From: a virus
Reading direction: 5' to 3' (one strand)
IMG/VR virus record: IMGVR_UViG_3300031999_001882
Location: 62,001 to 126,000 of that record
Length of the DNA: 64,000 bases
This document shows positions 38,290 through 64,000 of the stretch, piece by piece (the first letter of the stretch is position 1; each line of letters opens with the position of its first letter). The translations under genes were made by a program, and so were the position numbers. Under the pieces are notes generated by a model, which worked only from the letters and a program-made list of their open reading frames with translations, was not told the DNA's origin and did no database searches.

Positions 38290-39291
38290 TTACACGATGT
38301 CTAGTTCAACCACGCCAGCCGTGTTATGGATTCCCATTCCGATCTGTTCCCAGCCGTAGATGTCATACTGACCTTGAGGGACGTTATCGAAGATTTTGAC
38401 TTCGACTTTCTTCCGCTCAGGTAGACGGCCAAGTTTGTCAGGGGTGGTAACCACGAACACTTTGTTGACAGGGTTGCGTGTGCTAACGATCAACTTCATC
38501 CCGAAGATCGACCCAAAATATCCCGTTTCAACGACAGTGTTCAGGGTGACCTGATCTATGTCATTGGAGGGGAATTTCAGGAGGTCTGAGTAGTTCTTAG
38601 GGTTCATCAGAACCGTGGAAGCGATGAGCTGATTCTGCGTGATGCTCCCCACCATGTCGGCCAATACGGTCTTGGTGACCGCGCTGGACGAGAATGGCGT
38701 ATTCGGCGAAACTGCACTCGCCGCTTGGAGCACTCGATAGAATTCGTCATCCTCGGCAATCGCCATCGCAATCGCTACGCGCTCTTTAGCGCGGTCGAAG
38801 ATTGGATAACGACGGATTTGGATGTCCTCATACTTCACGACTTCATCAATCCCTAGAACGAACGTCGGGAATTGCACGCGACGAACATTCGTTTCAAACG
38901 TGGTCGGTGAACCCAAAGCGGCCAACTTCACCGCTCCGAATTCAGGGATGTCCACGTCATAGATCGGAAAATCTCCCTGTGGCATTTCATCCACAAGCAG
39001 AACTTTCCGGTCCACCGAAACGTAGTCCAAACGAGTTTTCAAGGGCAACTGCATGGAGTACGCCAACCGCCTGAACCCGTTAGGGCCAGACAGGATTTGC
39101 GACAGCGCATCTTCCATTTGCTGTGGCGGGACGGTCGGAAGGAGAGGCGCATTACCCGCAGAGCGAGCAAAGCCACCTGTTCCAAGCTGACCCGAACCGC
39201 CAACAGTATTCGCCGCTTTCAGAATTTGCGCGATGAAGCGATCCTTCTGAACTGGCGATAAATCACCCATCAGGTTTTGTCCCGGTAGCAT
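38290..39291 (-). CDS. major capsid protein (HK97 fold type)
   Basis: 333 residues. After an N-terminal ~75-residue arm (containing 'FARSAGNAPLLPTVPPQQ'), the text shows the E-loop and P-domain pattern of phage capsid proteins: 'LLVDEMPQGDFPIYDVDIPE', 'VQFPTFVLGIDEVVKYEDIQ', 'RRYPIFDRAKERVAIAMAIA', 'QLIASTVLMNPKNYSDLLKF', 'LNTVVETGYFGSIFGMKLIV', then 'QYDIYGWEQIGMGIHNTAGV'. The gene order scaffold, decoration candidate, capsid is typical. The size is small to average. A strong hairpin follows. Confidence 0.85.
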   Translation of the reverse strand: MLPGQNLMGDLSPVQKDRFIAQILKAANTVGGSGQLGTGGFARSAGNAPLLPTVPPQQMEDALSQILSGPNGFRRLAYSMQLPLKTRLDYVSVDRKVLLVDEMPQGDFPIYDVDIPEFGAVKLAALGSPTTFETNVRRVQFPTFVLGIDEVVKYEDIQIRRYPIFDRAKERVAIAMAIAEDDEFYRVLQAASAVSPNTPFSSSAVTKTVLADMVGSITQNQLIASTVLMNPKNYSDLLKFPSNDIDQVTLNTVVETGYFGSIFGMKLIVSTRNPVNKVFVVTTPDKLGRLPERKKVEVKIFDNVPQGQYDIYGWEQIGMGIHNTAGVVELDIV

Positions 39292-39849: not shown

Positions 39850-40878
39850 TTAGCCGCGATTCAGCGTGTCCTGAGTCCACAGATTCGAGAGACGTTCGAC
39901 CGCGCTTCCCTGCGAGGTTTTTTCAGGACCAAGCACCACAGGGGGCACATCTCCTTCACCTTCGTCAAGACTGCTGAATGTTTCAACACCTTCGGGTTTC
40001 GGTAATCCTTCGGATTTCGGTAGTCCTGCACCAGAAACTTTTGACTGGACCTTTTCGATGACACTTTCCAGCGCGGCAAGCGCCTTGTCGTCAAGTTCGG
40101 CCAGTTCTTTGCGGCAAGCTTCAAGATCAGCTTCCTCGATACCGATTTCGGTCAGCTCATGGAGAATCGCGTCAATGGCGGTAGCCTTCTCCCTCTGAAC
40201 TTCCTCCTCGGCTTTCTTCTGTAGCGCGGCCTTGGCTTCGGCGGCTTCCTTCTTTGCCGCTTCCACCGCTTTCAGGGCTTCGCCACGTTCATCGAGCGCT
40301 CTTTTCAGCAACTTCATGGGGCCGCTCAAATTTTTTGATTTGAGGTCAATGGCCTTGGTGGGTTCACCAACACCCGCCGGGTCCGGCAGACGATTGAAGA
40401 AGTCTTTGATCTTCCGGCCATGTCCCGGCACGGGAGAGATTTTGCCAGCCAAATCTCGATTGGCTTTGGCTTCTTCTTCGCTGACAGCTTCGGTCGGTCT
40501 TTCTTCCTTGCTGGCATCCTGCCGGGGCACTTCTTTTTCATTCAGCGCCCAATTCGCATAGTCAAAGTCCTTGTCGCCGGACGTGGCGATCTTTTTGAGT
40601 CCCGCTTTGACCACGGTCTTTTGCGCCGTCACCCATTTCAGGTAACCATCGAAGGTTCCACCACATTCCTTCTTAATCAGATCACAGATTTGTTCAGGTT
40701 CAATGACCTCGGACTGCTTGCCCTTGACAATCAATTTCTGAATCTCAACGGGCACGACATCTGCGGCCTTCACGACCTTGAGCTTCCCGGCCCCTTCTCT
40801 TGCAAGGAAAAAGGAACGCAGGAACGAATCACGGGCGTTCGAGCCTTCACGAATCATGTATTTCAGCGAGAATTCCAT
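39850..40878 (-). CDS. putative scaffold protein
   Basis: 342 residues from an ATG with AGGAGG nine bases upstream; an ATG at 40905 without a good SD is rejected. The sequence is strongly helical and charged: 'KRALDERGEALKAVEAAKKE', 'AAEAKAALQKKAEEEVQREK', then 'DLEACRKELAELDDKALAAL'. It ends with an acidic/Gly-rich stretch and 'SAVERLSNLWTQDTLNRG'. Two VVKA motifs ('VVKAADVVPVE', 'VVKAGLKK') lie in the first half. Position between protease and capsid genes and coiled-coil composition are normal for scaffold. Confidence 0.7.
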   Translation of the reverse strand: MEFSLKYMIREGSNARDSFLRSFFLAREGAGKLKVVKAADVVPVEIQKLIVKGKQSEVIEPEQICDLIKKECGGTFDGYLKWVTAQKTVVKAGLKKIATSGDKDFDYANWALNEKEVPRQDASKEERPTEAVSEEEAKANRDLAGKISPVPGHGRKIKDFFNRLPDPAGVGEPTKAIDLKSKNLSGPMKLLKRALDERGEALKAVEAAKKEAAEAKAALQKKAEEEVQREKATAIDAILHELTEIGIEEADLEACRKELAELDDKALAALESVIEKVQSKVSGAGLPKSEGLPKPEGVETFSSLDEGEGDVPPVVLGPEKTSQGSAVERLSNLWTQDTLNRG

Positions 40879-40891
40879 TGTAGATAGCCTC

Positions 40892-42574
40892 CTATTGGCA
40901 TTCATATTTCGGCGTTTCCGCCGTGTCAGATTTCCTATCTAAGCCCAGCGACTCCCGCCAATAGGCGATCTTCTGCGTTTCAGGCATCTCAGTTTTCGTG
41001 CGTTCGAGCAAGACTTGGGTCGCTTGTCCGCCCCGGTAGAGCCGGAGCAAATTGGTTTGTGCATCTGCCTTGAGAGTCAGGCCCGGTCCGATTTCGATGC
41101 CGATTTCTTCCGGCTTCGGCTGGATCACGGCATAGAGCGCCTTCAAATAGGCCCCTTGGCGCGTGTCGCCCTCAAGAGACTGCCGAACGGCCTTGTCCAA
41201 GAGAATGGTTGCCATGACCTGCGGACCATAGACCAGCTCCGGGGATACCATCGGCGGGCAGGCGGTTTCCGGCGGATTGGCGATCTCCTCCTGCATCCTC
41301 TGGACTTCCTGCTGGGCATCTTGGCGGTGCTCTTGGACAGCTTGGCTGACTTCGTTGATGATCGGAAGCTGGACTTGGGCCATCATCTCGGCCAACAGCA
41401 CGTCCACCTGCTTCATCACCTCTTGGGACACTAGCCCGTCGATCTTGTTCTTGATCGCGTCCTTGATCGTTTCGTCGATCTTGGTGGAAATGGGCTTGGT
41501 TTCTTCCTGAATCTGGTCCAAAAGCGGGGTTGGAGGCACTTCGCCCACCAGCGCATCGGCCTTTACCACCTTGGAAATGGGGGCGATATCCGCCGGGTTG
41601 AAGGAAGCCGGGCCACGGCGCTCTTTGCGGCGCTTTTCCACGAAATCCCCGCCCCCGGTCATGCTGGGGGCGGCATCCATGACCTTTTTGGGGTTGGCCG
41701 CGCCGCTATCCACGGCGGGGTTGCCCTGAAAGGTCGAAGGCGACTGAGCGTTGAGCGCGGACTTATCCAGCGCAGAGCGGAGCGCCACGCGCTCCTCTGG
41801 CGACAGATTGGACAGCGCCATGTCCAGCGTGCACTTCCCGTCCGGGCATCCGGCGGCCTTGGCCTTCCTGTTCTGGTACTGGACGGCATGGGTCAAAAGG
41901 TTCTTCTGGACCGAAGCAAACACTTCAAAGACGTGCGCCTCGATGTCGGCGGGCTGGGCCACGCCGGACAGCTCCGAGAAGGTCACTTTGCGGTTGATCT
42001 CATAGGCTTTGACCCCATCCGACTGCGTGCGGCCCTTGCAGTAGGTGGGCGACATAGGGTTCATATGGGCGCACAGCTCATGCTGGTTGCGGGCGATGTT
42101 GCGGCAGATCGAGCACTCCGCTTCTTCCACGACGCATCCCATCGACACGCTGTTGAGGATTCCGGCTTCGATCTGGCGGGCGATGTCTTGATAAGCTTTC
42201 CGGTCTACAGCGACAAGACACTCAATGTATTTGCCTTCGGGATACCACACCGAGTCCAAGATGATGCCCTTGGCCTTCTCGATGGAGTCCGAGTCATGCT
42301 CGATGTAGAAACCCTTGCCCACGAAGGACTTATAGGAAGCCTCAAGCTCTTTGTCCTCAAAGAAATCCCCGTTGCCATTGGCGATGTTGGCCGTGATCGA
42401 GCGAGCGCGGAAATAAACAAAATTATCGGGGTCATAGTCGAAGGCTTCCGCCGGGAGGAAATCGCTCTTTTTAAGGAGCGTGGATTTCTTCACGACTTCC
42501 TGCCATGTCCATGTCTTGTTGTCGTTCTGCTTTAAGATGTCCGAAATCTCGATGGTCGCTTTTCTGTAAAACAT
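40892..42574 (-). CDS. prohead protease with long C-terminal scaffold-like extension
   Basis: 560 residues from the ATG in a TGATG junction (a TTG codon just ahead is less likely). Residues ~1-150 show the prohead serine-protease pattern: 'VGKGFYIEHDSDSIEKAKGI' (H93) and 'EAGILNSVSMGCVVEEAECS' (S142/S144 before Met-Gly), as in T4 gp21-like and herpes assemblin folds. A Cys/His cluster follows ('CSICRNIARNQHELCAHMNP', then 'YCKG'), probably zinc-binding. The rest, from ~250, is Glu/Lys/Gln-rich coiled-coil ('EVSQAVQEHRQDAQQEVQRM'). It may cut scaffold, capsid N-terminus and internal proteins at capsid maturation. Confidence 0.75.
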   Translation of the reverse strand: MFYRKATIEISDILKQNDNKTWTWQEVVKKSTLLKKSDFLPAEAFDYDPDNFVYFRARSITANIANGNGDFFEDKELEASYKSFVGKGFYIEHDSDSIEKAKGIILDSVWYPEGKYIECLVAVDRKAYQDIARQIEAGILNSVSMGCVVEEAECSICRNIARNQHELCAHMNPMSPTYCKGRTQSDGVKAYEINRKVTFSELSGVAQPADIEAHVFEVFASVQKNLLTHAVQYQNRKAKAAGCPDGKCTLDMALSNLSPEERVALRSALDKSALNAQSPSTFQGNPAVDSGAANPKKVMDAAPSMTGGGDFVEKRRKERRGPASFNPADIAPISKVVKADALVGEVPPTPLLDQIQEETKPISTKIDETIKDAIKNKIDGLVSQEVMKQVDVLLAEMMAQVQLPIINEVSQAVQEHRQDAQQEVQRMQEEIANPPETACPPMVSPELVYGPQVMATILLDKAVRQSLEGDTRQGAYLKALYAVIQPKPEEIGIEIGPGLTLKADAQTNLLRLYRGGQATQVLLERTKTEMPETQKIAYWRESLGLDRKSDTAETPKYECQ

Positions 42575-42822
42575 CAATGCCCCCCGTTTTTAGCGGCCAG
42601 CCGTTTGGCTTTCTGGCTGTCCCACGCATACTCACGACCGCATTCGCACCGCATCTCGCTCTTGCCGCCAATGAGTAAAAATCCGTTTGTCGCTTCCAGC
42701 ACGCCATGAGAGTATCGGCCCAACGACCTGCCGCACGGACAATTCACCACGGTCGCGTCATCCACCACAAAGGCCCCTTTGTGGGTGATGGGTTCCGGCG
42801 ATCCTTGGCGCTGAAAGCTCAT
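42574..42822 (-). CDS. small zinc-ribbon protein in the head operon
   Basis: 82 residues starting at the ATG that overlaps the upstream TGA as ATGA; a start 63 bases earlier is in frame but has no such support. Two Cys pairs 'NCPCGRSLGRYSHGVLEA' and 'EMRCECGREYAWD' form a simple ribbon of the rubredoxin/Com type, which in phage Mu binds mRNA. It sits between the portal-side small genes and the protease. Function unknown; a translation regulator or assembly factor is possible. Confidence 0.6.
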   Translation of the reverse strand: MSFQRQGSPEPITHKGAFVVDDATVVNCPCGRSLGRYSHGVLEATNGFLLIGGKSEMRCECGREYAWDSQKAKRLAAKNGGH

Positions 42823-43388: not shown

Positions 43389-45269
43389 CTATACCGCCGG
43401 GCCTTCCGCGCCCGGAGTCACAGGTAACTTCTCTTTTTCTTCCGGTGCGCCAGCGCCCGGCTTGGCTTCTTCGGGCTTACCCGGAGGCGGCCCAAGGCTC
43501 GGACCCTTCATCGGTCCGCCGCCTGCGGGCGCTTTGGTATCCATCAAATCTTTGAGTGGCTTGGGGCGCGAAGGCTTTTCCTCGACAGGCTTGGAATCTT
43601 CCGATGCCTTTTCCTTCATGGCGATGTCTTTCAAGATGTCCTTCATCTTGTCGCCGCGCAGGAAGCGGTCGCGCAACTCTTTGTTCTGCTCATCCGTGAG
43701 ATACGCCTTCTTGAGTTCCTGCCAATCAGGATCGAGGTAAGTGGCTTCCTCTGTCTCGAACTGCTTGGTGACGATCTTAGATGACAGCCCAAAGACATCG
43801 TTGATGATCTCCTGCGGAATGCGGCCATCGGTTCGCATTCGGAGCAACATCTCCTGCTCCTGCGTGTTGTTGAGCAAATTGAGCTTCTGCCAAATGAAGG
43901 TCGGCAGATAATAGCGGTCGTCCGGCACATTCTCTTTGAAGTTGTTGCGAACCTTGTGGTCGATCTCGGCCTTGGTTCGGCGGATGAGCTTCTGCTCACG
44001 GGCGATGGGCAGGAAAATCTTGTATTTGAAAATCTTTTCGATCTCGGCCCGCTCGGTGATATAGCGATGGAACAGCATTTTGAGGTTGACCGTCTGCCCG
44101 GCGTAGCTCGGCGCTTCGCCGCCCAACAGCGCTTCGTTGGCGAACAGCCCGGTCATAATGCGCTTGCCCACCCAATCGAACCACGGAATGAGGTTTTCAA
44201 TCTTGTCCTTGGTCCCGACATAATCCACCTGCACGCCAAAGTGGTAGATGATGTTGTAGTCCGGGTCATTCGCCGCGCTGACCAAAAGCTGTTTGAACTT
44301 GTCAAAATGCTTCTTCGACGGAATCCAGCCCTTCGCCTCGGAACCGAGCTTGAAAATCTTGATCGGGAACATATGCCGATCTACGAAGGTGTATTGGAGA
44401 TACCGAAGCTTGTCCTCGAACAGCAAATCCTTGAGCACACGCTTGACCAAGGACAGGCCGCGCAGGGTGTATTTCGATGTCCGGTTAGCGAAGTGGATCA
44501 CCCGGTTGGCATCGAGCATATAGGGTTTCCCCCGACCCACAGACTCCACGAAATGCTTAGGCATCAGGCCCACGATGGCCCGGTCCACCGGGTCATTGGA
44601 GCCGACGACTTTCTGCAACTCAGGATCGGGCAGGAGGAAATAGGCGGCGGAGTTCGAGACATAGGTGCGCTTGATGTCGATGTATTCCGGTGGATACTGG
44701 TTCCACTCGGACCATTCGAGATTGTTCTTGTCCCACATCCCATACCACATCGACTCGCCCAAAAGATGCTTGTCACGGAGCATCCAGACCGCCATTTGCA
44801 GGAGGTCCAGCTTTTCCTTGATATAGTTGAACTTGGATTTTACGGATGGCTCATCGACATGAAGCTCGAAGTCGGAGAGCGGAAAGGTCGAATGGATGTC
44901 AATGATCGAGCCGACGTAAGGCTGAAATTTGTAGTAGTGACGTAGCCGCTTATTGACCTCTTTGAGATTGTCCTCTGGGAACAGGAGGAGAACGGTATCC
45001 CAAAGCGGATCAACATAGAGAAGCGGAGTGCGTACTGTGTCTTGGGTGGAGGAGGACTGAAACAACTGCTGAAAGTCAGCTTGGCGCTTAAAGCCTTTTC
45101 CGTCACCCAACTGGCCGCCGCGCCGTGTGCCTGTGCCATCGGCTTGCGCGATCTCCGCCAGAGCTTCGCCCGCCGACTCCAACAGCTCGGACTGCTGGGC
45201 AGAGCGATGGAAGGCCCCGGAGAAGCCTACTGGCTCGAATGATTCGTCTGGATTACTATTTTTCGCCAT
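43389..45269 (-). CDS. portal protein
   Basis: 626 residues. It has the portal pattern: an N-terminal disordered part, 'LWDTVLLLFPEDNLKEVNKR', the clip/stem region with 'YYKFQPYVGSIIDIHSTFPL', 'DKHLLGESMWYGMWDKNNLE', 'NRVIHFANRTSKYTLRGLSL', 'GWIPSKKHFDKFKQLLVSAA' and 'GGEAPSYAGQTVNLKMLFHR', and a Pro/Gly/Lys-rich C-terminus ('GGPMKGPSLGPPPGKPEEAK'). The portal forms the dodecameric DNA-entry ring. The long disordered tail (from about 545) is unusual. Its position ahead of the protease and capsid genes is standard. No terminase is visible upstream in the window. Confidence 0.85.
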   Translation of the reverse strand: MAKNSNPDESFEPVGFSGAFHRSAQQSELLESAGEALAEIAQADGTGTRRGGQLGDGKGFKRQADFQQLFQSSSTQDTVRTPLLYVDPLWDTVLLLFPEDNLKEVNKRLRHYYKFQPYVGSIIDIHSTFPLSDFELHVDEPSVKSKFNYIKEKLDLLQMAVWMLRDKHLLGESMWYGMWDKNNLEWSEWNQYPPEYIDIKRTYVSNSAAYFLLPDPELQKVVGSNDPVDRAIVGLMPKHFVESVGRGKPYMLDANRVIHFANRTSKYTLRGLSLVKRVLKDLLFEDKLRYLQYTFVDRHMFPIKIFKLGSEAKGWIPSKKHFDKFKQLLVSAANDPDYNIIYHFGVQVDYVGTKDKIENLIPWFDWVGKRIMTGLFANEALLGGEAPSYAGQTVNLKMLFHRYITERAEIEKIFKYKIFLPIAREQKLIRRTKAEIDHKVRNNFKENVPDDRYYLPTFIWQKLNLLNNTQEQEMLLRMRTDGRIPQEIINDVFGLSSKIVTKQFETEEATYLDPDWQELKKAYLTDEQNKELRDRFLRGDKMKDILKDIAMKEKASEDSKPVEEKPSRPKPLKDLMDTKAPAGGGPMKGPSLGPPPGKPEEAKPGAGAPEEKEKLPVTPGAEGPAV

Positions 45270-52487: not shown

Positions 52488-52648
52488 TATCGAAATCCTC
52501 CTAGTATGATTTTTTCTATCCCGCAATCACATCGACAAAGCCATTGAGTCGAAGTCGAACTGCCATACCGAACAGACGGCATCTTCTGTAAAACAAGCCA
52601 TCTCCCATAACGCTGTTTAGGATGAATGTAGCTGGATCGTCCAATCAT
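52487..52648 (-). pseudogene. remnant of a homing endonuclease zinc domain (53 codons)
   Basis: An open frame from ATG 52646-52648 (ATGA with the upstream stop) to TAA at 52487-52489 encodes 'MIGRSSYIHPKQRYGRWLVL', 'QKMPSVRYGSSTSTQWLCRC' and 'DCGIEKIILGGFR'. The stretch 'YGRWLVLQKMPSVRY...WLCRCDCGIEKII' lines up with 'FGRLVVIGKDKLIRY...WLCKCECGKSVVV' of the complete endonuclease at 48202-48861. The HNH part is missing. It is most likely a truncated copy of that gene type, still in frame and possibly translated as a small zinc peptide. Confidence 0.7.
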
Positions 52649-54039
52649 AAATGTCCGAGTTCAGTATCATGGCTCTGCTGTCGCTCTCTATAGAACAGCT
52701 TTCCAAGACCTTCTTCTGTAAGGGCCATGATTTTGTTTTCATCCGACTTAAAAGTATCGTCAAAAACAATGCTTCCGTCGGCGATCACAAAAACTAAAAG
52801 ACCAGCCTTTGTTCCTATGTCGGCAGATAGCGTATTGTCAACGATATCGACGATCACCGACATAATGGCGTTTGCCGAGAAGAATTGTTCGATATCTTCT
52901 CCCGGCACTTGGACTTCGTTCTCTATTTTCTCAGCCAATTCTCTGCCATGATATTTGAAGCTCGATATTCGTAACGAAAAATTACGCAGAACTGAATTCT
53001 TCTGACGGATGTATTCGAGAATCTTGGAGACATTCTCGGTCATCGCCTTGTCCACATCCACTTCGTCGCGCTCTGCTTCAAAATACTCAGAAGGCGTGAC
53101 CTGCTTGCGCTCGTCCTCAAACGGTTGCTTCTTCACATCTGTCTCGGCATCCATCAGCTTCTCAGAGAGGCCCGTCTCCATCGCTCTCTGCTGGGAATCG
53201 CCCGCAGGTTGCTCAGTCGGGGTGGCTTCGGTCGGCGTAAGCGCCACGCGAATCCACTCCGATTCCTTGGACGAGATATGACCCATTTCTTCCGCGCCCT
53301 TGAGCATCGTGTCGATCTCGCGGTTGTCGCGTGCGTGCCGATATAAGTGCGTGTAGATGGCCGAAGCCCGCTCGCCCAGCTCTGCGGCCTGCAACAGAAT
53401 GCTGGGGTTGTTCGAGTCCAGCGTGCTCAGCGCTTCGCCATCGTCCTTAAAGTCCTTCATCTGGTCTTTGGTGAGCGGTGCGTCAAAGAGCATTGCTTCC
53501 TTCACATGATCCTTGAGTCCTTTGATCGCGTGATCGGAAGTCAGATACATCTCGACGACATCTCGCTGAGTATCGCCCTTCTGACCAAAAAGAGCGAAGC
53601 CCCAATTAAACGGATTTATGAAAAAATAATCGTACTTTTCTTTGCCCTTGGCTTCGCCCCATCCCATCGAGATTCCGGGGATGGTCGGAGGCGTGCTCAA
53701 GAACTTCGCCGGGTTCAGGAGATCGTAGGGGTGGATGCCCGTGAGATGCTTAAAAGCCCGCACGATCTCATCTCGCTGATAGCCGAGAGAAATCAGGTAG
53801 CCTTCCATGAACTTGTAAGCAAAGCGGCCCTCATTGATGAGACGCTTTAAGTTTCTCTCAAGCTCAATGCGCTCCGGGCGCGTGTTGGTCCCGGCGTAAT
53901 AGACATCAGCGTATTGATGGCTGATATTCCAGTCACGGGCGGAGGCGGTTCGTTTGGTCTTTTCCAATGCGTTAAGAACGGGGTCGAAGTCTCCCCCTTC
54001 AAAGTCGGTCACTTCATTTTCCAGCCAATTTTTAGACAT
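52645..54039 (-). CDS. unknown 464-residue protein
   Basis: It starts 'MSKNWLENEVTDFEGGDFDP' and contains 'LEKTKRTASARDWNISHQYA' (a KRTA motif like those in the giant protein) near residue 30. The middle has 'FEYGRFAYKFMEGYLISLGY'-like helical text, 'DYFFINPFNWGFALFGQKGD' and 'RDVVEMYLTSDHAIKGLKDH'. The C-terminal ~120 residues ('FFSANAIMSVIVDIVDNTLS', 'GLLVFVIADGSIVFDDTFKS') look like a separate alpha/beta domain. No enzyme signature is recognised. It follows the giant gene pair and may be another head-internal protein. Confidence 0.5.
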   Translation of the reverse strand: MSKNWLENEVTDFEGGDFDPVLNALEKTKRTASARDWNISHQYADVYYAGTNTRPERIELERNLKRLINEGRFAYKFMEGYLISLGYQRDEIVRAFKHLTGIHPYDLLNPAKFLSTPPTIPGISMGWGEAKGKEKYDYFFINPFNWGFALFGQKGDTQRDVVEMYLTSDHAIKGLKDHVKEAMLFDAPLTKDQMKDFKDDGEALSTLDSNNPSILLQAAELGERASAIYTHLYRHARDNREIDTMLKGAEEMGHISSKESEWIRVALTPTEATPTEQPAGDSQQRAMETGLSEKLMDAETDVKKQPFEDERKQVTPSEYFEAERDEVDVDKAMTENVSKILEYIRQKNSVLRNFSLRISSFKYHGRELAEKIENEVQVPGEDIEQFFSANAIMSVIVDIVDNTLSADIGTKAGLLVFVIADGSIVFDDTFKSDENKIMALTEEGLGKLFYRERQQSHDTELGHL

Positions 54040-54111: not shown

Positions 54112-54339
54112 CTACCCGTTGCGTTGCCCGTTACTGCTTGCCACGGCTCTTAACGCCTTCAAAGTATCTTCATCCAGACGTGATCCTAAGCTGAAATCCA
54201 ACCTCTCTGGCCGGGCTTGCGCCGGGCGCTCTTGTCTTACAAACGCCTGCGGCTGACGACGAACGACCTTCTGCATCGGCCTTACGGCCTGAGTCTTTCG
54301 ATCTAAGAGTTCTACAGCCCGGTCGAGACTTCCCATCAT
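54112..54339 (-). CDS. small Arg-rich protein after the giant gene
   Basis: 75 residues whose first ATG overlaps the giant gene's TGA (ATGA). The text 'ELLDRKTQAVRPMQKVVRRQ' then 'PQAFVRQERPAQARPERLDF' is basic and Gln/Pro-rich, probably disordered, with a short helical C-terminus ('LDEDTLKALRAVASSNGQ'). It may bind nucleic acid. No family is recognised. Translation is supported by the junction. Confidence 0.55.
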   Translation of the reverse strand: MMGSLDRAVELLDRKTQAVRPMQKVVRRQPQAFVRQERPAQARPERLDFSLGSRLDEDTLKALRAVASSNGQRNG

Positions 54340-57300
54340 TTCGTTGGTTCGAGTTCTTTCTCAGCGATAGTAAATTGCGATCCAGTACGCTGGCCGTAAG
54401 AATCCAGCGTAATCACTTCATAGCTTTTGTCCGCAGAGATCGCAGAAGCCACACGCTTGATGATCTCGGCTTTGTCACCGGACACCAACCAGACGTGAGA
54501 GCCTTCCGCGAAGCGATACCCGGCGTTCTTGAAGAAGTCGGCTGTCGATTGAAGCTTCATAGAGAGCTTTTTGCGGCGAAGCTTCTTGGATTCTTTGTCC
54601 AGCTCCCACGCGCTTCCTACAAGGTCCGAGGACTTGAACTGATCGAAGTAGCGGGCCGCACGCTGGGCGGCTTGCGCTGGCGGCAGATCGGACTTGGTAG
54701 CGATCTGATCCAAGAGCGCAGTAACGGCGGCTTTGACATCGCCGCCTCTCAGGTAAGCTTCTTCGCCAGCCTTCCAGACCTTTGAAATGTCCATCATATT
54801 GATCTGGTAGCCATACACCGCATCTTGAATGAGGTGCGCCATCTCATCCTTTTGCTTGCGCGTAATCTTGCCGGGAACTGCCGCCTGTTTCTCCACAGAT
54901 GTGTCGCCGCCGATAATCCCGTTCTCAACAAACTCGTCCTTCAATTCAGGGAACCGCTCGGCGAGCTGTTCAAAATAAGCCCCCCATTCAGCGAGTTCGC
55001 CGTAGCTGAGGTTCTGCTGACTCACCCAATTCTGCCAGCCTATCGCATAATCTCTGGCTTCTTGGGCAGTCTTGAGGACAGCATAGGGAGCCTTCTTGAG
55101 TTCTTTGGCCGCCGTGACTTCGGCAGTCGCAGGAGTGGCTTCGGCTTCCTTGGCCTTCTCCTCTTTGCGCTTGGCCCGGTCCTCCTGCTGTTCCTTGAGC
55201 CGCTTCTCCATCTTCTCAAGCGCGTCCACGGTTGACGCGATCTCTGAGGGGTCGGCTTTGTCCACATCCAAATCCTTGAGCTTGCGCCGGAGCGACTTCA
55301 CCTGATCCGACAATCCTGATTCGACTTCCATGCTGGCCTCCTTTAACTCGAACGGTTCTTCTCCTGCATAGGTGAAGATGGTTTTGCCAGTCTCCGCCAA
55401 GTCCTCTAAAGGAGAACGCAACTCATACTGCGGATACCACCAAAACTTTGGCTTGCTTCCGAAATCAATCTCTCCGTTGTCATCCAAGCTTCCATCGGAG
55501 ATGATGAGCGAATCAGTCAAAGCGCCGATCTGCTCTGGCCGAACTAACATATAGCCGTTGCCAAACATCGGCTCAAGATAATCCAGCAAACGCGAATCGC
55601 TCTGATCCTCAACATCCTGTCGGATTTCCTCTAAATCATCACCCGTTGCGGTGATCTCAAGATTCTTATTTGGCAGAACCTTCCAGCTTATACCGCCGCG
55701 AGCCTTCTTCTCCATTGACCCAAACGCACTCCCGGTCATAATACCCAGCGCCGCCTGCACGCCTCCGGCATCTGCCCCGGCCCCGATAAGCGCCTGCGAG
55801 ATGATGTGAAGCATCACCTTGCCTTGGCTCTTATACTGGTCCAAGACCCCCATGTAATCGCCGTAGTGCCCCTTGGTGGTGGCGGGCTTGCTCTCGATGT
55901 GCTTGACCATCTCGATGATGTCCGGGTCTTTCGACAGCATATCAATGGCCTGCTTAATCTTCTGCTCTCTGGACACTTCCGGCCCGCCGAAGCGATCTAA
56001 GCTGGCCGCCATCTCCATCGGCTCCTCCGGTTGTGCTTTGGCCTTGCCGATTTCCTCCGCATTGGCATCTTGCGCCTGCTGGATCGCGGCCTTGATTCCG
56101 GCCTCGTCGCCCTCAGTCGCATCACTCAAATAGCGGCGAATCTGGGTCTGAATCTTGGAGGTGGTCACCGAATACTTCTGCGTGTTGAAGAAGGTTTCTC
56201 CGGTGTTGCTTCGGAACACGATGGGGGTCGCATAGTTCACCAGCGCCCAGCCACCCGGATACTTCTGGATGGTCAAGTGCTCTGTGCCCCAGCGATCCCG
56301 CTTGTCTTTGGGGAACGAATCGTGCGCGAACATCTCAATAACCTGCTCGTTGGAGGCGGCCTCAACCTTCATTGCGGCGGTCGGCTTGCCCGGCCACTCA
56401 TCGCCTTCGGACATCGCCACGCAGTTCGCGTGCGCGAAAGAAGTCGGCATCACTTCCCCCGGCTCAGATTTGGAATCCACGATCATATCCCCGGCCTCGA
56501 TTGCGTTGCCGCATATCGGGCACGTCTCTCCGATCTCTCCTTCTTCGGCAGATCGCGCCTCTAGCTTGGAATAACACTCGTTACACAACGCTTCGTTAGG
56601 GTCATCGCCTTCGCCCCAGCCTTCCGGCATCTCCACGGGCTTCCCGCATTGAGGACACGACACGCGCTGAGCGGCCTTCTGCTTGCGCCAGCTCTTGAAC
56701 TCCTCGCTGTTGCGAACTTCGTCGCTTTCCTTCTTCTCCGGCGACTCGCGCCACTTCTTGTCCTCGTCTTGGAGCCGCTTCACGTCCTTCTGATTCTTGG
56801 GATTGTGTTCCAGAGGAGGCCAGCCAGAAGCGTCAACCTTGGTCGGCATATTGTCCGGGTCACAGCCGCATTCGTTGACGATATCATTCATCTTGCCGCA
56901 GGTCGGGCACTTGTGAATCCCGGCTTTGCGGTCATGCTTCTCGGCCAGCTCCTTCTCGAAATCCGCCAGCTCCTTACAATCCTTGCACCAGCGCGAGCCT
57001 TTCTCGGCATCGGCCTTGTGACAGAGCGTGCACTTCTGGGCGGAGGTCACCACTTGAAGGCCGCCGTGGTCATCCAAGAACCAGATGGTCGGATAGAAAT
57101 TGCCCTGATCCACCGCTTTGACGGCGGCAATCAGCTCGTCCCACTCCGGCGACTCGGCGAGCTTCTTACCGCTCTGATAAGCGGCGTACATCCCGCCAAG
57201 CTGTCCTTCGGTCTGGATCACGATATCGTCCTCGGCAGGCTCCTGCATCTCCTCCGAGTCAAACTCCTCCACCTCGGCTTCGGCTGTGCGCTTGCTGGCT

Positions 57301-60300
57301 TTCTTCTCTGATTTCTTTTGTTGCAGGATGGCTTCTGCTTCCTTGATTCGCTTGGCAACATACGCCTGCGTGCCCTTATCGGTCACATCGTTCATGCGAC
57401 TCATCCAGTTATCAATGAGCGCTTCCAGCTCGGCTACTGATTTATCCTTGAGATCGCTGGCTGTGCGCTTGCTGGCGATGGTGTCTTTCCAATAAACCCA
57501 AGCGACCGTCACCTTGTCATTCTCCACTTCGTCGATCTTGACGGCATAACCCGCCGAAGCATAAGCGCCCTTCACGCCGTTAAAGCCCAGCTTCGCCAGA
57601 TCACCATTGGGTTCCACAACCTCGAACTCGCCCAGATCAAAGATGTTCCCGTCATACCGGAAGAAGTCGCCCTCTCCGTTCTCGACGTAATCCAGCTCCT
57701 TCTTCTCCTCGTCAGTCAGTTGAGAATAATCCATGAGCGGAACAGTCTGCTCGTTCTTAACCACCAATCCAGTCGGCCCCGCTTGGTCATCGGCCTTCTT
57801 TTCAAGGGGTGGTTTCCGGTGCTTAACCGGGATATAGTGATGTTCGTCATCCAAGCATTTGTCGCATTGTCCACGTCGTTCGCGTGTCTCGTTGTCGTGA
57901 TTTTTGAGCGGGTGTCTGCATACGGCACATGGCGGGGCATCAACATTCTCTTTGAGCGGAGCATCAGCCTTGCGTCTGGCGGCCTGCGTCGGCGGCTTGC
58001 CCTGTAGCTCGGCAATGCCTGTGCTGATCCCTTCGCCCACGCCACGGTCGTACTCCTCCCACAGCTCATCAGCATTCTCGGCCTTGTTAAAGGCGCTGGC
58101 AAGAAACTCGAAGGGCGTATATTGCCGACCATTCTGCTCGGCCTCAAACGCTTCGTCGGCGATCTTTTCCACGTCGAGATTGCCTTGGGCATCTTTATAG
58201 CCTTGGAATTCGCCCTTGTTCGTGATGATGATGTTGAATCCCTCGTCATAGCCCATGCGGTACGCTTCATCCGGCATGATCGGTTCTTCTGCGCCCCGGC
58301 GACCCAGCGCCGAATAGAGACGCACCTTGGCTTCTTTGGAGAGCGGCTTGAGCGAGGACTGCTTGGTGGGTGGAATGTCGCCTTCTTCCAGATGCTCGAT
58401 CTCGCCGCTCTCGGTGAACGCCAGATCATTGGCCTCCGCATCCTCTTTGATGTATTCGTCGGACTGCTGGTACTCAAGCTCGGCATAGCCGTCCTTCTCA
58501 AGCTGACTACACAACTCCTGACGAACCTCGTCGATATACTGGATGAACTCGACGTACAGCTTCTCAAATTCCTCCGTGGACATCCCGGCTTCTGCGGCCA
58601 GATCATCCATGCTTCCGGGGGTATTGTCCTCCACCTTGACGGTGTATTTGTGGGAGTAATGATGGTCGATGCTCTTGAGGTCGATGTAAAGCGACTCATA
58701 GAACTTGGCGAAGATATTGAACCGCTCGTTCGGGTGCGCTTGCAGGAACTTCGCCACGTCCATGTGCGCGGTAAAGCTCACGCCGGAACCCTGCGTCGAG
58801 CTGAGATCGTAATTCACCTTCGGGTTCACAAACCCGTGCTCTTGCAAATCGCTCTCGGCATTCTCTTTCCAGAAATCAACGTCCGCCATTTCGTAATACT
58901 TATAGCGCACCTTGTCCTTGGCCTTCTCATCCAGATCATCGAAGGTAAAGAGATCGACCTTCCGGTAGAAGGTGTGCTTGGGCTTGCGCGGCTCGTCGGC
59001 AAATCGCTTCATAAAGCTCTCCTTGGCGGCGAGGCGCGAAGCCTCTTTGCTGATATTCTTGGCATAGGCCATCGCTTCTTCGCGTGAATCAAATGTCTTG
59101 TTGCCAGCGCCGGACTTATCCCGCTCGCCGCCGTGCTGAATGCCATCCACCAGCACCATGAACTTTCCGCCCAAAGCTTCCTTGATCGAAACATTCTCAG
59201 GCATCGACGACTTCCTTGTGCGCCGCCCGACGCGCTGTTCCGTCGGATTCACATAGACATTGTTATCCTGATCCTTGAAGAAGTCAGCGCCAAAAGAATC
59301 GAACTGGCCGCCGTTACGTTCATAGGGATCGAGAAACACCAGCTTGAAGTCCGTCGCCAAATCGCTGGCCGACATATAAAGGAACTCTGTGTTCGGCTCC
59401 TCGTCCTCTTTAAGCGGCTCGCCCGTCAGCGCTTGGTAATCCTCTTTGCTCCAATCGTTCGCATAGACCCGGAGAACCATCTCTGCCGTCTCGACTTCTC
59501 CACCCGGCGGGACCAGCATATAGACTCGATGGCCGCTCTGCATATCGGTGTCGGTCAAAAGAGTCCAGCCCGTGCGAATCTCTCCGATGTTCTCTACCGC
59601 ATTCCAGTCCACCTGAGTCTTGAGCGCTTCGCCATCGCCTTGAGTCAGCTCGGCGGGCAATGTCTTGAGCATTGCCACGGCTTCCGCGCCACTACCTTCC
59701 GCATATTCGGTCAGGGTAGCCGAGTAATTCACCTCGGTCCGCGCCCAATCCAAGAGGAATGCCAACTGCTCATCAGTCAGCGCGGCGGCTTTGCGGCTCA
59801 CCTTCTTAGCTTCAAACTCTTTGCGGTGTTCTTTCTCCTGCGAGATGGCGTGGTCCAGCACTTCCTTGAGCGCTGGGCTGGCATCTTCCTTCTGCCCGCG
59901 ATACTCGTCGATAGCGGCCTGCTCCTGCTCCACATCGCGCTTGACGATCTCAGCATCCCGGTCGGCTTTGCGCTTGGACGCGAAGGGCATCTTCATCTGC
60001 GCGGGGTTCTCTGGCGGTGTCAGCTCTTGTTTGATCGCTTGGTGAACGCCGGAGTCCTCGGCATACTTCAACAGGTCTTTGGCATCCATAAAAGCTTCAC
60101 CGTTGTTTTCAAAGGACGACTCCACAGCTTCCCATAAGAGTTGAAGCACGCGCTCGGAAGGCTCATACGCTTCGAGTGCTTCCTGCTTCTCCGCCGGAAG
60201 CTCCTTCGCCAAATCTTCCTTGACCCATTTCAGGGCTTCATCCTTACCCCATACGTCAAACGATTCCCGGTATTCCTGCTGTTCTGCATTCGTAAGAGCT

Positions 60301-61670
60301 TCCTCATCAAGCACCGGATAATCGGCCATGTCGCGCTCAATGCCTTCGGCAATCGCTACCTTGTCGGCGGCATCTTTATGGACCAGCAAGAATTCAACCC
60401 AGCCCACCGCCCAATGACCTGACTTTGCCACGACCACGCCATTGCCTTCGCCGCCCAAAGCTTTGAGCGCCGCATCGAAATTGGTTTTCTCAAGCGCTTC
60501 GGAGTCCCGGTTCTGCGTGAGCACGACATAATAATCGGAGTAGTCGTCGCCCATATAATTCTCGGCAGGCTTCCACAGTTCGAGCGCCTTGCGCTTTAAG
60601 CTGGCCGTGTCATAACGACCCTTGATGGGCGGCGCGGTCTTTTTGCCTGTGCCTTTGCAATAGGGGCACGTCTCCAAAGGCCCGGCTCCGGTGCGTGACT
60701 TCCCATAACCAGCGCAATACTCACACTCTGCTCCGTCTGCCGCCTTCGCTGTCATGCCGCCCTCCAAATAGACGTTGCCATCGTCGCCAACAATAGCATC
60801 GCAGTTCCCGAAGGCTCTGGCAATGTCGCTCAGCTTCTCACCCACATCGCCCAGCCCGCGATCCCAGAAGCCCGCGCCATGCCCACAGCGCGTCAGCCAG
60901 AAGTCATGGCCCGCCTGCTCATCGTCAATCTCATTTAAGAGATCGCCTGCTTGCTGGCGAAACGCCGCGCAATCGGCCTTGGCCTTCTCGATGCTCTCCG
61001 GGGCAATATCCTCGATCCCGAAGTTCTGATCCAGAGGTTCGCCGCCCGTCTCCGGGTCAGAGTTGTCGTTCGACGACCATAGCGCCGCTTCGAGATAGGC
61101 CGACACAAAGGGATCAAGCCCTGCGGCTTGCCGAGATGTCTTGGCCTGCTCATCGACCAGCCGCTTGTTGTGCTCGCCCTGCATATGCTCGAACGACTCC
61201 TCAGATTCATTTAAGGGTTCGCCCTTGGCTCGCTTGGCTTTGATCTTGGCTTCCATCTCCTCCTGCCACGCTACAGTCCCGAACTGAGCCGCCGACTTGG
61301 TTGCGGGCTTAACCTTGGCCCAGCACGCATCACACAGCGCCCCAAAATTCTGTTCGTTGAACATCCGCTCTCTGGCAGGCTGGCCGTCGTTCTTGCATTG
61401 GCGAGCCGCATCCCGGTTCCCGAAGTCCCGCTCTAAGATGCCCGTCTCGCAGGAGTCGCACAGCCCAGCCGCCGCGCCATAGGTATTGATGATGGTGTCC
61501 TTGCCACACTTCTTACACTTGCCTTGGGCGGCAGAGCGCTTGGAAGCCGCGCACGCGCAGGTTCCCCCGCAGGCGCACGTCTCCGACTCTTGACGAATTT
61601 TTGAAGGAGCTTTTTTGTCTTTTGGCTCCACGATATCTGTCCAATGATTTTTCAATACCGCTTTATCCAT
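54336..61670 (-). CDS. giant mosaic protein (2444 aa), candidate polyprotein of small domains
   Basis: Domains seen in order: Cys-rich zinc segments (C32-C40, C52/C55, C71/C74, C113/C116); a DnaJ-type centre (C316/C319, C335/C338); a ~130-residue unit with 'GHWAVGWVEFLLVHKDAADK' and 'ADYPVLDEEAL' known from many plasmids/phages; a ferritin-like helix pair (E583, Y590, E612-x2-H615); a phage-type unit around 900-1090 ('SDEYIKEDAEANDLAFTESG'); zinc ribbons at C1248/C1251, C1547/C1550, C1588/C1591, C1672/C1675 and C1717/C1720; a unit with 'NFYPTIWFLDDHGGLQVV'; and one with 'GGWALVNYATPIVF'. Between them basic-x-Ala motifs recur (residues 43, 179, 565, 625, 878, 1231, 1400, 1459). Many of these units resemble small independent proteins, so proteolytic processing is plausible. 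The SD AAGGAG is inside the upstream endonuclease. Confidence 0.65.
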   Translation of the reverse strand: MDKAVLKNHWTDIVEPKDKKAPSKIRQESETCACGGTCACAASKRSAAQGKCKKCGKDTIINTYGAAAGLCDSCETGILERDFGNRDAARQCKNDGQPARERMFNEQNFGALCDACWAKVKPATKSAAQFGTVAWQEEMEAKIKAKRAKGEPLNESEESFEHMQGEHNKRLVDEQAKTSRQAAGLDPFVSAYLEAALWSSNDNSDPETGGEPLDQNFGIEDIAPESIEKAKADCAAFRQQAGDLLNEIDDEQAGHDFWLTRCGHGAGFWDRGLGDVGEKLSDIARAFGNCDAIVGDDGNVYLEGGMTAKAADGAECEYCAGYGKSRTGAGPLETCPYCKGTGKKTAPPIKGRYDTASLKRKALELWKPAENYMGDDYSDYYVVLTQNRDSEALEKTNFDAALKALGGEGNGVVVAKSGHWAVGWVEFLLVHKDAADKVAIAEGIERDMADYPVLDEEALTNAEQQEYRESFDVWGKDEALKWVKEDLAKELPAEKQEALEAYEPSERVLQLLWEAVESSFENNGEAFMDAKDLLKYAEDSGVHQAIKQELTPPENPAQMKMPFASKRKADRDAEIVKRDVEQEQAAIDEYRGQKEDASPALKEVLDHAISQEKEHRKEFEAKKVSRKAAALTDEQLAFLLDWARTEVNYSATLTEYAEGSGAEAVAMLKTLPAELTQGDGEALKTQVDWNAVENIGEIRTGWTLLTDTDMQSGHRVYMLVPPGGEVETAEMVLRVYANDWSKEDYQALTGEPLKEDEEPNTEFLYMSASDLATDFKLVFLDPYERNGGQFDSFGADFFKDQDNNVYVNPTEQRVGRRTRKSSMPENVSIKEALGGKFMVLVDGIQHGGERDKSGAGNKTFDSREEAMAYAKNISKEASRLAAKESFMKRFADEPRKPKHTFYRKVDLFTFDDLDEKAKDKVRYKYYEMADVDFWKENAESDLQEHGFVNPKVNYDLSSTQGSGVSFTAHMDVAKFLQAHPNERFNIFAKFYESLYIDLKSIDHHYSHKYTVKVEDNTPGSMDDLAAEAGMSTEEFEKLYVEFIQYIDEVRQELCSQLEKDGYAELEYQQSDEYIKEDAEANDLAFTESGEIEHLEEGDIPPTKQSSLKPLSKEAKVRLYSALGRRGAEEPIMPDEAYRMGYDEGFNIIITNKGEFQGYKDAQGNLDVEKIADEAFEAEQNGRQYTPFEFLASAFNKAENADELWEEYDRGVGEGISTGIAELQGKPPTQAARRKADAPLKENVDAPPCAVCRHPLKNHDNETRERRGQCDKCLDDEHHYIPVKHRKPPLEKKADDQAGPTGLVVKNEQTVPLMDYSQLTDEEKKELDYVENGEGDFFRYDGNIFDLGEFEVVEPNGDLAKLGFNGVKGAYASAGYAVKIDEVENDKVTVAWVYWKDTIASKRTASDLKDKSVAELEALIDNWMSRMNDVTDKGTQAYVAKRIKEAEAILQQKKSEKKASKRTAEAEVEEFDSEEMQEPAEDDIVIQTEGQLGGMYAAYQSGKKLAESPEWDELIAAVKAVDQGNFYPTIWFLDDHGGLQVVTSAQKCTLCHKADAEKGSRWCKDCKELADFEKELAEKHDRKAGIHKCPTCGKMNDIVNECGCDPDNMPTKVDASGWPPLEHNPKNQKDVKRLQDEDKKWRESPEKKESDEVRNSEEFKSWRKQKAAQRVSCPQCGKPVEMPEGWGEGDDPNEALCNECYSKLEARSAEEGEIGETCPICGNAIEAGDMIVDSKSEPGEVMPTSFAHANCVAMSEGDEWPGKPTAAMKVEAASNEQVIEMFAHDSFPKDKRDRWGTEHLTIQKYPGGWALVNYATPIVFRSNTGETFFNTQKYSVTTSKIQTQIRRYLSDATEGDEAGIKAAIQQAQDANAEEIGKAKAQPEEPMEMAASLDRFGGPEVSREQKIKQAIDMLSKDPDIIEMVKHIESKPATTKGHYGDYMGVLDQYKSQGKVMLHIISQALIGAGADAGGVQAALGIMTGSAFGSMEKKARGGISWKVLPNKNLEITATGDDLEEIRQDVEDQSDSRLLDYLEPMFGNGYMLVRPEQIGALTDSLIISDGSLDDNGEIDFGSKPKFWWYPQYELRSPLEDLAETGKTIFTYAGEEPFELKEASMEVESGLSDQVKSLRRKLKDLDVDKADPSEIASTVDALEKMEKRLKEQQEDRAKRKEEKAKEAEATPATAEVTAAKELKKAPYAVLKTAQEARDYAIGWQNWVSQQNLSYGELAEWGAYFEQLAERFPELKDEFVENGIIGGDTSVEKQAAVPGKITRKQKDEMAHLIQDAVYGYQINMMDISKVWKAGEEAYLRGGDVKAAVTALLDQIATKSDLPPAQAAQRAARYFDQFKSSDLVGSAWELDKESKKLRRKKLSMKLQSTADFFKNAGYRFAEGSHVWLVSGDKAEIIKRVASAISADKSYEVITLDSYGQRTGSQFTIAEKELEPTK

Positions 61671-62145
61671 TGCAATTACTCCTTGATTTCAAATTCGCCA
61701 AAGCGCTTTGATATGCCTTACTCGCCCTATGTTCGTCAGCGAACATCCCAAGATGATGACACTTGCCATCAAATTTAATTGCGGCCTTCCATCGTCTATT
61801 ATGCTTATCCCATGAAATGCCAACGAATTTTGACGAGAGCTTCCCTTCCTTTTTTCTTTTCTGATTGGATACGTTTTCTCTATTCGTGACGATCTGTAGA
61901 TTCTCTCGCTGATTGTTCAAGCCATTGCCATCCTTGTGATCGGTAACAAACCCTCGTTGCGGAACACCTGCGACACAATGGTGCATCAGTCGCCTTCGCC
62001 GCAAGCCATCTCCAAGAATTTCATTTCTGGACGCATAAAAAACATTGTGAGTGCGACAAGCACTCCACTTAAATTGATTAAGCTCGTTAAATATATCGTC
62101 ATCGACAAAAGCTACCCTGCCTTGAGATAATTTAATCTTCTTCAT
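61663..62145 (-). CDS. HNH-AP2 homing endonuclease
   Basis: 160 residues. 'KIKLSQGRVAFVDDDIFNEL' and 'FKWSACRTHNVFYASRN' lead to the HNH core 'LMHHCVAGVPQRGFVTDHKD' and 'GNGLNNQRENLQIVTNRENV', then an AP2-like DNA-binding domain 'FVGISWDKHNRRWKAAIKFD' and 'HLGMFADEHRASKAYQSALA'. This combination is a standard phage homing endonuclease. AT-rich relative to its neighbours, it lies directly before the giant gene, whose SD is within its last codons, so it entered that junction without harming it. Confidence 0.9.
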   Translation of the reverse strand: MKKIKLSQGRVAFVDDDIFNELNQFKWSACRTHNVFYASRNEILGDGLRRRRLMHHCVAGVPQRGFVTDHKDGNGLNNQRENLQIVTNRENVSNQKRKKEGKLSSKFVGISWDKHNRRWKAAIKFDGKCHHLGMFADEHRASKAYQSALANLKSRSNCNG

Positions 62146-62940: not shown

Positions 62941-64000
62941 CTACGAAACAGACAACACTTGATCGAGGACATCCATCGCCTGAGCTTCTGTGAGCTTGAA
63001 CTCACGCATCAAATCCTCGGCAATTTCATCCTCATTGGCCTGACCCAGCCGAACAAGATCACGGGCCAAATCAAGAGCGCTGTTCGTAGGAATATCCGGC
63101 TCGGTCGGTCCTCGCTTCGGATATACGTCGCGTGTTCCAGTTTCTACAGCATCTTCAAATTGATCGCGGTAAGTGGCCGGGGCGCTTTGCCCCGGTGCTT
63201 CTGTCGGGCCGCCCTTCTCTGCGTCCGTGTCGGTATGCGCGTGCATATCGTTGGTCTTGAGACTGAACGGTTTGACCCAGCCCCAAGACACCATGCGCCC
63301 ATAAATCTCCGTGGCAGACATCCCTGTGCCGCCGCCTGTCTCCGCCGCATAGCGCTGTGCCAGTACCTCTGCCTGCTTCTCATCAAGGAACGCATGATCC
63401 GGTTCGATGTCTGTGCCAAGAAATTCGCGGGCCAAGACCAGCAAAGACTCCTGCTCGTCCTCCGCCCGGCGCTTGATCTCGGCCACCTTCTCGTTGCCGG
63501 AGAGCGAGGCTTCCAGCTCAAGGAGCCGGACAAAAGCCGGAGCGCCCTTCGCGGAAGCCGCAACCCACTCAAACCCACTATTGGATTTAGCGGTGCGCCA
63601 GCCGGGGTTGCCCTGAACCAGCGAGCGCCATTCATCGAACTCCGTGGCTTTCACAAAGCCAGCGCCAGACTTCACAAATATGATCCGGCCAATGACCTTG
63701 GGGGCCGGGCGCGGCGTTGGGGCTGAGGGCGGCGTGCGGACCACAGGCTCCTCGCCGGGGGCCGGGTTAGACTCCGGCTCTGGCTCGGCGGCGGGCGCAG
63801 GCTTCGGCGCTTCGCCTTTAATCTGATCCACCGGGGTCGGAGGCATGACTGGCCCGCCAGCCGGGGCAGATTCGTCCGGCTTCGGTTCCTTCGGGGGCGG
63901 CTCCTCAATCCCGGTCTGCTTGGATAGCTGGTCGTGAATCTTCCGCACGTCCTCTTTGGTGTATTTGAGCTGGTTGCGAGAAAGCCATGTGTAGATTTCG
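62941..64000 (-). CDS. modular protein, 5' end beyond window (352 aa visible)
   Basis: The frame is open to the window edge: the visible chain begins EIYTWLSRNQLKYTKEDVRK, upstream of an internal GTG at 63948, so the true start is outside. Next comes a Pro/Glu-rich linker ('PPTPVDQIKGEAPKPAPAAE'), a small domain 'IIFVKSGAGFVKATEFDEWR', a helical section 'LEASLSGNEKVAEIKRRAED' and 'LDEKQAEVLAQRYAAETGGG', a polar linker and a C-terminal helical bundle ('EDEIAEDLMREFKLTEAQAM'). Several modules separated by linkers recall the giant protein next in the operon. Function unknown. Confidence 0.55.
   Translation of the reverse strand, partial: EIYTWLSRNQLKYTKEDVRKIHDQLSKQTGIEEPPPKEPKPDESAPAGGPVMPPTPVDQIKGEAPKPAPAAEPEPESNPAPGEEPVVRTPPSAPTPRPAPKVIGRIIFVKSGAGFVKATEFDEWRSLVQGNPGWRTAKSNSGFEWVAASAKGAPAFVRLLELEASLSGNEKVAEIKRRAEDEQESLLVLAREFLGTDIEPDHAFLDEKQAEVLAQRYAAETGGGTGMSATEIYGRMVSWGWVKPFSLKTNDMHAHTDTDAEKGGPTEAPGQSAPATYRDQFEDAVETGTRDVYPKRGPTEPDIPTNSALDLARDLVRLGQANEDEIAEDLMREFKLTEAQAMDVLDQVLSVS

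Follow-up and report, generated by a model that had tools for sequence, protein, structure and literature searches.

Several tailed phages mature head and ejection proteins with a prohead protease, as described for the T4 internal proteins, SPN3US/phiKZ and P1. In SPN3US, where the motif is AXE, N-terminal propeptides are removed at 13 of the 14 mapped sites and a C-terminal one at the remaining site (PMC10052503). Virion proteins of the jumbo phage PaBG were found in several gel bands, which the authors read as multiple proteolysis sites (PMC7412058). In P1, DarA and DarB are head proteins; DarA is believed to be proteolytically processed, and the first 30 residues of DarB suffice to send a reporter to the capsid (PMC9024508). 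Here we describe a giant protein of 2444 residues, encoded in a 64,000-nucleotide stretch of viral DNA (positions 62,001 to 126,000 of the 144-kb virus record IMGVR_UViG_3300031999_001882), referred to as the window. The giant is built of small units that are shuffled among relatives, with basic-x-Ala motifs at many of the borders. It is probably a head-cargo polyprotein that would enter the prohead, where the capsid maturation protease would cut it into separate internal proteins.

The locus resembles the systems above in encoding a maturation protease of the herpes-assemblin/phage kind, in a short motif common to the capsid protein and other head proteins, and in predicted N-terminal propeptides. 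The AXE consensus was not found; the motif here is basic-x-Ala, a different specificity, and unlike the SPN3US sites it would mark the points at which one polypeptide is divided into many different units. The nearest conceptual kin of the giant are the polyvalent proteins (Iyer et al., 2017, PMC5512222), in which many unrelated domains stand in one long protein that is encoded in a virion gene cluster and rearranged among relatives. Their analogy to RNA-virus polyproteins has already been drawn (PMC5512222). Polyvalent proteins, however, contain defined domains, often with an embedded peptidase where processing was proposed, whereas the giant has no confident Pfam domain or HExxH and would be cut in trans. 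RNA-virus and retrovirus polyproteins likewise carry units between virus-protease sites, released during or before maturation; the present system would differ in belonging to a tailed double-stranded DNA (dsDNA) phage, in concerning accessory cargo only, in a separately encoded protease and in the rapid shuffling of units. In the open-licence literature we found no account of a phage whose head polyprotein is cleaved in trans.

Modular organization of the giant protein

The giant gene is a single open reading frame (ORF) of 2444 codons with an ATG start and no internal stop (54336-61670). The initial annotation, made from the letters alone, had described this uninterrupted frame correctly; its strand, which was not given there, is minus. 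All eight motifs that it listed were located, at residues 43, 179, 565, 625, 878, 1231, 1400 and 1459. The strict pattern [AS][KR][KRQLT][KRASTQ]A occurred 8 times in the giant and zero times in the remaining ORFs listed for the window. The looser pattern [KR][KRTQS]A was found 21 times against 9.3 in shuffled sequences (z 4.2). A similar excess was observed in the giants of two relatives (z 5.0 and 3.3) and in a fourth giant (z 5.7), while it was small or nil in most other long proteins of these phages.

Thirteen CxxC pairs are present in the giant, and the DnaJ-type centre noticed initially corresponds to a CxxCxGxG pair at residues 316-341; a sub-threshold match to Pfam DnaJ_CXXCXGXG was obtained on the giant of one relative (G001). 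What had been taken for a ferritin-like pair is one two-helix half-unit with ExxH (569-624), although the ferritin likeness itself was recovered, weakly, with encapsulated ferritins (EncFtn) as the closest match (E 0.0095). Encapsulated ferritins are cargo of HK97-fold encapsulins. By this likeness the half-unit would be cargo of an HK97-fold shell, with the differences that the match is weak and that the shell here is a phage capsid, not an encapsulin. The Pfam search with the whole giant returned zero confident families; by Pfam, the giant lacks the domains described as typical of polyvalent proteins. An embedded metallopeptidase was considered and rejected, as HExxH is absent from all three giants compared.

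Relatives were reached with the portal and capsid proteins as queries. These yielded two close relatives, G001 (90 kb) and G002 (147 kb), each from a metagenome other than that of the window; viral contigs scanned directly with the full-length giant gave no match. Each relative encodes a giant ORF (1778 and 2320 residues, respectively) in the equivalent gene neighbourhood. These giants are built partly from shared units, the order of which is shuffled, with duplications, losses and insertions. In G002, the pieces of the window's giant follow one another from N- to C-terminus as 1-58, 42-93, 355-564, 1471-1541, 566-625, 183-315, 2109-2188, 1900-1986, 2116-2189 (second copy), 1761-1875 and 2335-2441. 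Only the terminal positions are fixed: all three giants begin with the unit of the first 43-58 residues and end with that of the last ~100. The unit at 2192-2260 lies, in G001, inside another protein, the homologue of the 464-residue neighbour (52645-54039). The proposal that the giant is a string of separate units is well supported by shuffling, duplication and loss, and the giant shares with polyvalent proteins the presence of several unrelated domains in one polypeptide that are rearranged among relatives.

A fourth giant of 1478 residues, carrying the phrog_1915 unit discussed below, was found on a 456-kb phage contig that also encodes related capsid and protease proteins. It contains 8 KTA against 0.6 expected and 16 [KR][KRTQS]A against 4.1 expected. 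Downstream of the giant gene of the window are those for the portal protein, the capsid protein and the protease. When portal and capsid proteins are compared, the closest named phages are Bacillus phage G and Mycobacterium phages, with identity under 30%. The C-terminal and GLSDQV units had no occurrences beyond the two known relatives, and bacterial and archaeal genome contigs, for which one conserved unit and the capsid protein served as queries, gave no relative.

Motifs at the borders of the units

The ends of homologous blocks were compared with the positions of [KR]xA. Such a motif lay within 8 residues of 37 of the 62 ends, against 17.0 ± 3.3 under circular shifts (p ≤ 5e-5); with a slightly different definition of position, 32 of the 62 borders were within 5 residues, against 11.6 ± 2.9 (z 7.0). 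The ordered [KR]xA was the strongest border signal both by number of borders and by z, and early control motifs showed no border enrichment except a weak one for [KR].E.

The motif also travels with single units to new neighbours. Across the three giants, the ferritin-half unit follows KRKA, KTAS and KTAG, and SKRSAAQG and SQRKAAQG precede the equivalent zinc unit despite different upstream neighbours. Further borders are marked in different copies by EKKA/DKKA, EKQA/TKIA and RAAR/RYAK/KDAK. Among hand-collected sites, which were picked for having [KR]xA, T, K or Q was favoured at the middle position and small residues followed the Ala. The motif does recur at unit borders, as had been claimed, in a looser form than the one listed: its recurrent core is [KR]-x-A, and several borders (e.g., 1761, 1893 and 2116) have no basic residue.

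A unit with stand-alone homologues

The initial annotation likened the units to free-standing ORFs of phages and plasmids. This was borne out for the one unit tested, phrog_1915 (about residues 181-306), the homologues of which span almost exactly the stretch from motif to motif. It occurs as a separate ORF of ~118-150 residues in Serratia, Cronobacter and Mycobacterium phages, Kashira, CR3 and Pound being named examples, and on a Paraburkholderia plasmid. In viral contigs, it was a short separate open frame at 14 of the 17 loci carrying the unit (L091-L104). Modelled alone with AlphaFold2 (AF2), the unit is compact (predicted local distance difference test score 87.6, predicted template modelling score 0.84). 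Its fold matched predicted single-domain viral proteins, and a PDB fold search gave no counterpart. Together with the border test, these stand-alone homologues and the one autonomous predicted fold correspond to the arrangement of viral polyproteins, in which autonomous units lie between protease-site-like linkers.

The phrog_1915 domain is widespread in phages, is found on some plasmids and has an invariant AGHDF..R.GHG.G.W. It is possibly an uncharacterised enzyme or metal-binding fold.

Capsid protein and maturation protease

The major capsid protein carries GF[AST]R[ST]A between a variable N-terminal arm and the shell fold, and this motif was kept in six of six aligned relatives, down to 59% identity. 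The same type of motif occurs in the giant (SKRSA, SKRTA and SRQAA), as would be expected of substrates of one prohead protease.

The gene at 40892-42577, assigned as a protease (40892-42574) in the initial annotation, indeed looks like a head maturation protease. Its invariant His lies in GFYIEH and its invariant Ser in VSMGC, the AF2 core is confident at about residues 53-210, and in the four closest phages the N-terminus reads MF[YI]R[KR]A, so that the basic-x-Ala motif is common to the capsid protein and the protease. The family match, the His/Ser pair and a weak fold match point to an assemblin/S78-like head maturation protease. The 464-residue neighbour has its basic/Ala site near the N-terminus, with [KR]xA in three of four close copies and KQKA in that of G002. 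The presence of [KR]xA at the arm border in the capsid protein and close to the N-terminus in both protease and neighbour, along with the protease-like gene, lends indirect support from sequence to the suggestion that a prohead protease cuts the giant.

In distant relatives, protease and scaffold-like protein are fused in one gene (L034 7169-9430; 753 residues). In another (L075 4881-8363 and 9253-9966), a LAGLIDADG intein interrupts the protease gene immediately behind the conserved SMGC, and a LAGLIDADG ORF splits the capsid gene.

Proposed processing and alternative explanations

The following course of events is proposed. The fixed N- and C-terminal units would direct the giant into the prohead core, and the cassette between them would comprise roughly 15-25 small autonomous units. 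The herpes-assemblin-type maturation protease, encoded 12 kb downstream, would cut in the prohead at the basic-x-Ala linkers, with K/R at P3 and A at P1, the same signal as at the border between arm and shell of the capsid protein. Once released, the small proteins would remain associated with the DNA and pass into the next host; there, single units would probably counter host systems or manage metals or redox. Such a border would let any unit be inserted, lost or relocated, so that the cassette would evolve combinatorially. We infer packaging, cleavage, the cleavage site, injection and the functions of the units; the polyprotein idea of the initial annotation is strengthened, not proven.

Several observations weigh against this reading. 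The mirror motif A[KRTQS][KR] was also enriched at borders (11 vs 2.5, with 22 vs 5.5 for the ordered form), as were [KR][KR], AA and [KR]A. Because the mirror motif is enriched as well, borders are generally Lys/Ala-rich and order matters only partly. Lys/Ala-rich linker composition accounts for part of the border signal, and less weight is given to motif statistics alone because these composition-matched controls are partly enriched. The motif is also degenerate: [KR]xA was kept in all copies at roughly 10 of the 15 borders compared by eye, and the GLSDQV, 1761 and 1893 borders do not keep it. Cleavage of the major capsid protein at the arm border is itself a prediction, the capsid protein of phage G lacks both arm and site, and the top PDB fold match of the protease, herpesvirus assemblins, is weak (E 0.026). 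The giant was not seen across the wider capsid clade, because no match was found in its records L032/L034 and L074/L075, which may be fragments.

The general Lys/Ala richness of the borders would also suit an uncut modular virion protein, packaged and injected whole like P1 DarB (250 kDa), with the motifs serving as flexible linkers. DarB is packaged via an N-terminal targeting sequence (251 kDa; PMC9024508), and the DarA_C domain of the protein encoded next to the giant in G002 suggests that antirestriction proteins are injected. We regard this as unlikely, given that the ordered [KR]xA is the strongest signal at borders, recurs in the capsid protein and at other conserved sites and travels with units to new neighbours. 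The location of the giant within the head-gene cluster, with conserved termini and a variable middle, would fit a mainly cleavable core or scaffold protein as well, the fragments of which are degraded or lost; the units would then act as filler, not as cargo for delivery. Known proteases do cut long propeptides further after removing them (PMC10052503). A separate scaffold-like gene (39850-40905) is present, however, and the best-studied unit, phrog_1915, forms a conserved domain that is folded, contains invariant polar residues and has stand-alone homologues, which makes such a role improbable. Least probable is a cytoplasmic protein that is never packaged, a fusion hotspot of small accessory ORFs active in the infected cell. 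The units do resemble small accessory ORFs of unknown function, and stand-alone homologues lie among small accessory genes, but the giant sits in the head-gene cluster of all three phages, its border motif is common to the capsid protein and the protease, and one unit has moved into the conserved head-cluster gene 52645-54039.

A wider form of the polyprotein reading, the chances of which we consider even, is that a lineage of tailed dsDNA phages evolved a polyprotein strategy of its own: effector and metal-binding units would form an interchangeable set in one gene, the product of which the capsid maturation protease would cut in trans inside the prohead; the released proteins would be injected, and units would move between polyproteins at protease-site borders. 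If true, one protease-processed gene would load many small proteins into the head in equal ratio under a single targeting signal, and the phage could gain or swap cargo by acquiring a unit with the right border. Tailed phages would then join RNA viruses in using a polyprotein strategy. There would also be a sequence rule, [KR]xA borders, by which injected phage proteins whose function is unknown could be recognised, and a way would be suggested of programming a single phage to deliver several proteins.

Features of the locus and neighbouring genes

The units, border motifs and head genes are listed in Table 1.

Table 1. Positions in the window of the giant protein, its units and border motifs, and of head genes (res, residues).
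Feature	Position	Strand	Evidence or remark
Giant modular protein, 2444 residues, proposed cargo polyprotein	54336..61670	-	shuffled shared units in the giants of two relatives
N-terminal unit, res 1-44, Cys-rich SETCxC...C.C	61539..61670	-	N-terminal in three of three giants
Border motif SKRSA, res 43-47	61530..61544	-	G002 match reads VSQRKAAQG with different neighbour
Border motif SRQAA, res 179-183	61122..61136	-	sequence
phrog_1915 unit, res 184-306	60753..61121	-	many phages have it as a stand-alone ORF; AF2 fold compact and confident
DnaJ-type CxxCxGxG zinc unit, res 308-350	60621..60749	-	sequence; phrog_3931 match
Unit, res 356-564	59979..60605	-	neighbours differ in G002
Border motif SKRKA, res 565-569	59964..59978	-	both relatives have KTA ahead of the equivalent (ferritin-half) unit
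Two-helix ferritin-like half unit, res 569-624	59799..59966	-	weak likeness to encapsulated ferritin
Border motif SRKAA, res 625-629	59784..59798	-	sequence
Border motif SRLAA, res 878-882	59025..59039	-	sequence
Unit, res 904-1090	58401..58961	-	nearly full-length match to phrog_5162 (201 residues)
Border motif ARRKA, res 1231-1235	57966..57980	-	sequence
Unit, res 1290-1400	57471..57803	-	N-border EKKADD here, MKKQADD in G001
Border motif SKRTA, res 1400-1404	57459..57473	-	sequence
Border motif SKRTA, res 1459-1463	57282..57296	-	sequence
Unit, res 1470-1541	57048..57263	-	common to all three giants
Unit, res 1761-1870	56061..56390	-	common to G002; border without K/R
Unit, res 1893-1984	55719..55994	-	common to G002; border without K/R
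Unit, res 1990-2105	55356..55703	-	common to G001 (EKKA / DKKA)
Unit, res 2117-2188 (GLSDQVKSL)	55107..55322	-	two copies in G002
Unit, res 2192-2260	54891..55097	-	in G001 within homologue of the 52645-54039 protein
Unit, res 2264-2330	54681..54881	-	common to G001 (EKQAAV / TKIAAV)
C-terminal unit, res 2341-2444	54339..54650	-	C-terminal in three of three giants
Major capsid protein	38290..39291	-	GF[AST]R[ST]A at res 40-45 (about 39157-39174)
Putative scaffold/core protein	39850..40905	-	homologous to C-terminal part of protease fusion in G004/G005
Head maturation protease	40892..42577	-	phrog_18299 match, E 1.8e-22; invariant His94, Ser145
Portal protein	43389..45269	-	homology
464-residue neighbour	52645..54039	-	variable N-arm, then basic/Ala site and SARDW (res 30-34)
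Second long modular protein, C-terminal part, runs past the window	62941..64000	-	[WLV]T[KR][TQ]AQEPGEP junction in all three phages

Small genes near the capsid genes share N-terminal sequences. In G001 and G002 these genes begin MWTKTA, and in the wider clade they begin MEWLRKAAD, MKWIKKAAL, MDWLKRKAI or MSWLIKKSG. In a further phage, several unrelated neighbouring genes begin MSF[VI]NFK[KR]; a 524-residue ORF (L048 8648-10222) begins MSFVNFKRLSS and holds a second, internal copy, MSFINFKKLG, ahead of a ferritin-half unit. Across seven genomes, such tags were found in 42 of 326 genes near the capsid gene against 18 of 457 elsewhere, with a pattern that was chosen post hoc and with control patterns (e.g., [WF]...[KR].[DE]) enriched as well. 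The tags recall the N-terminal targeting sequences on head cargo of P1 DarB and T4 IPIII, in that here they are common to unrelated small genes near the capsid genes (MWTKTA and MxWLxKKA-like). In contrast to those systems, a tag-like motif also occurs inside the giants of the relatives (SWTKVAKDW, GWTKTSKDW and RWTKTSGRD). A 480-residue protein of the window (33437-34879, minus strand), conserved in both relatives, has two copies of W-x-K-x-A-D-x-TPG, one of them N-terminal.

In the relatives, the second long modular protein begins with a nucleotidyltransferase-like part (sub-threshold Polbeta); its middle parts are variable. DarA_C was detected above the Pfam cut-off in the G002 homologue, and none was detected in the window's own copy. 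An HNH_3 endonuclease gene (61663-62145, minus strand) lies between the giant and this second gene and was not seen there in either relative. A large protein with a beta-1,4-glycosyltransferase-like domain (phrog_13126) is encoded on the minus strand at 24888-27344, between tail and head genes.

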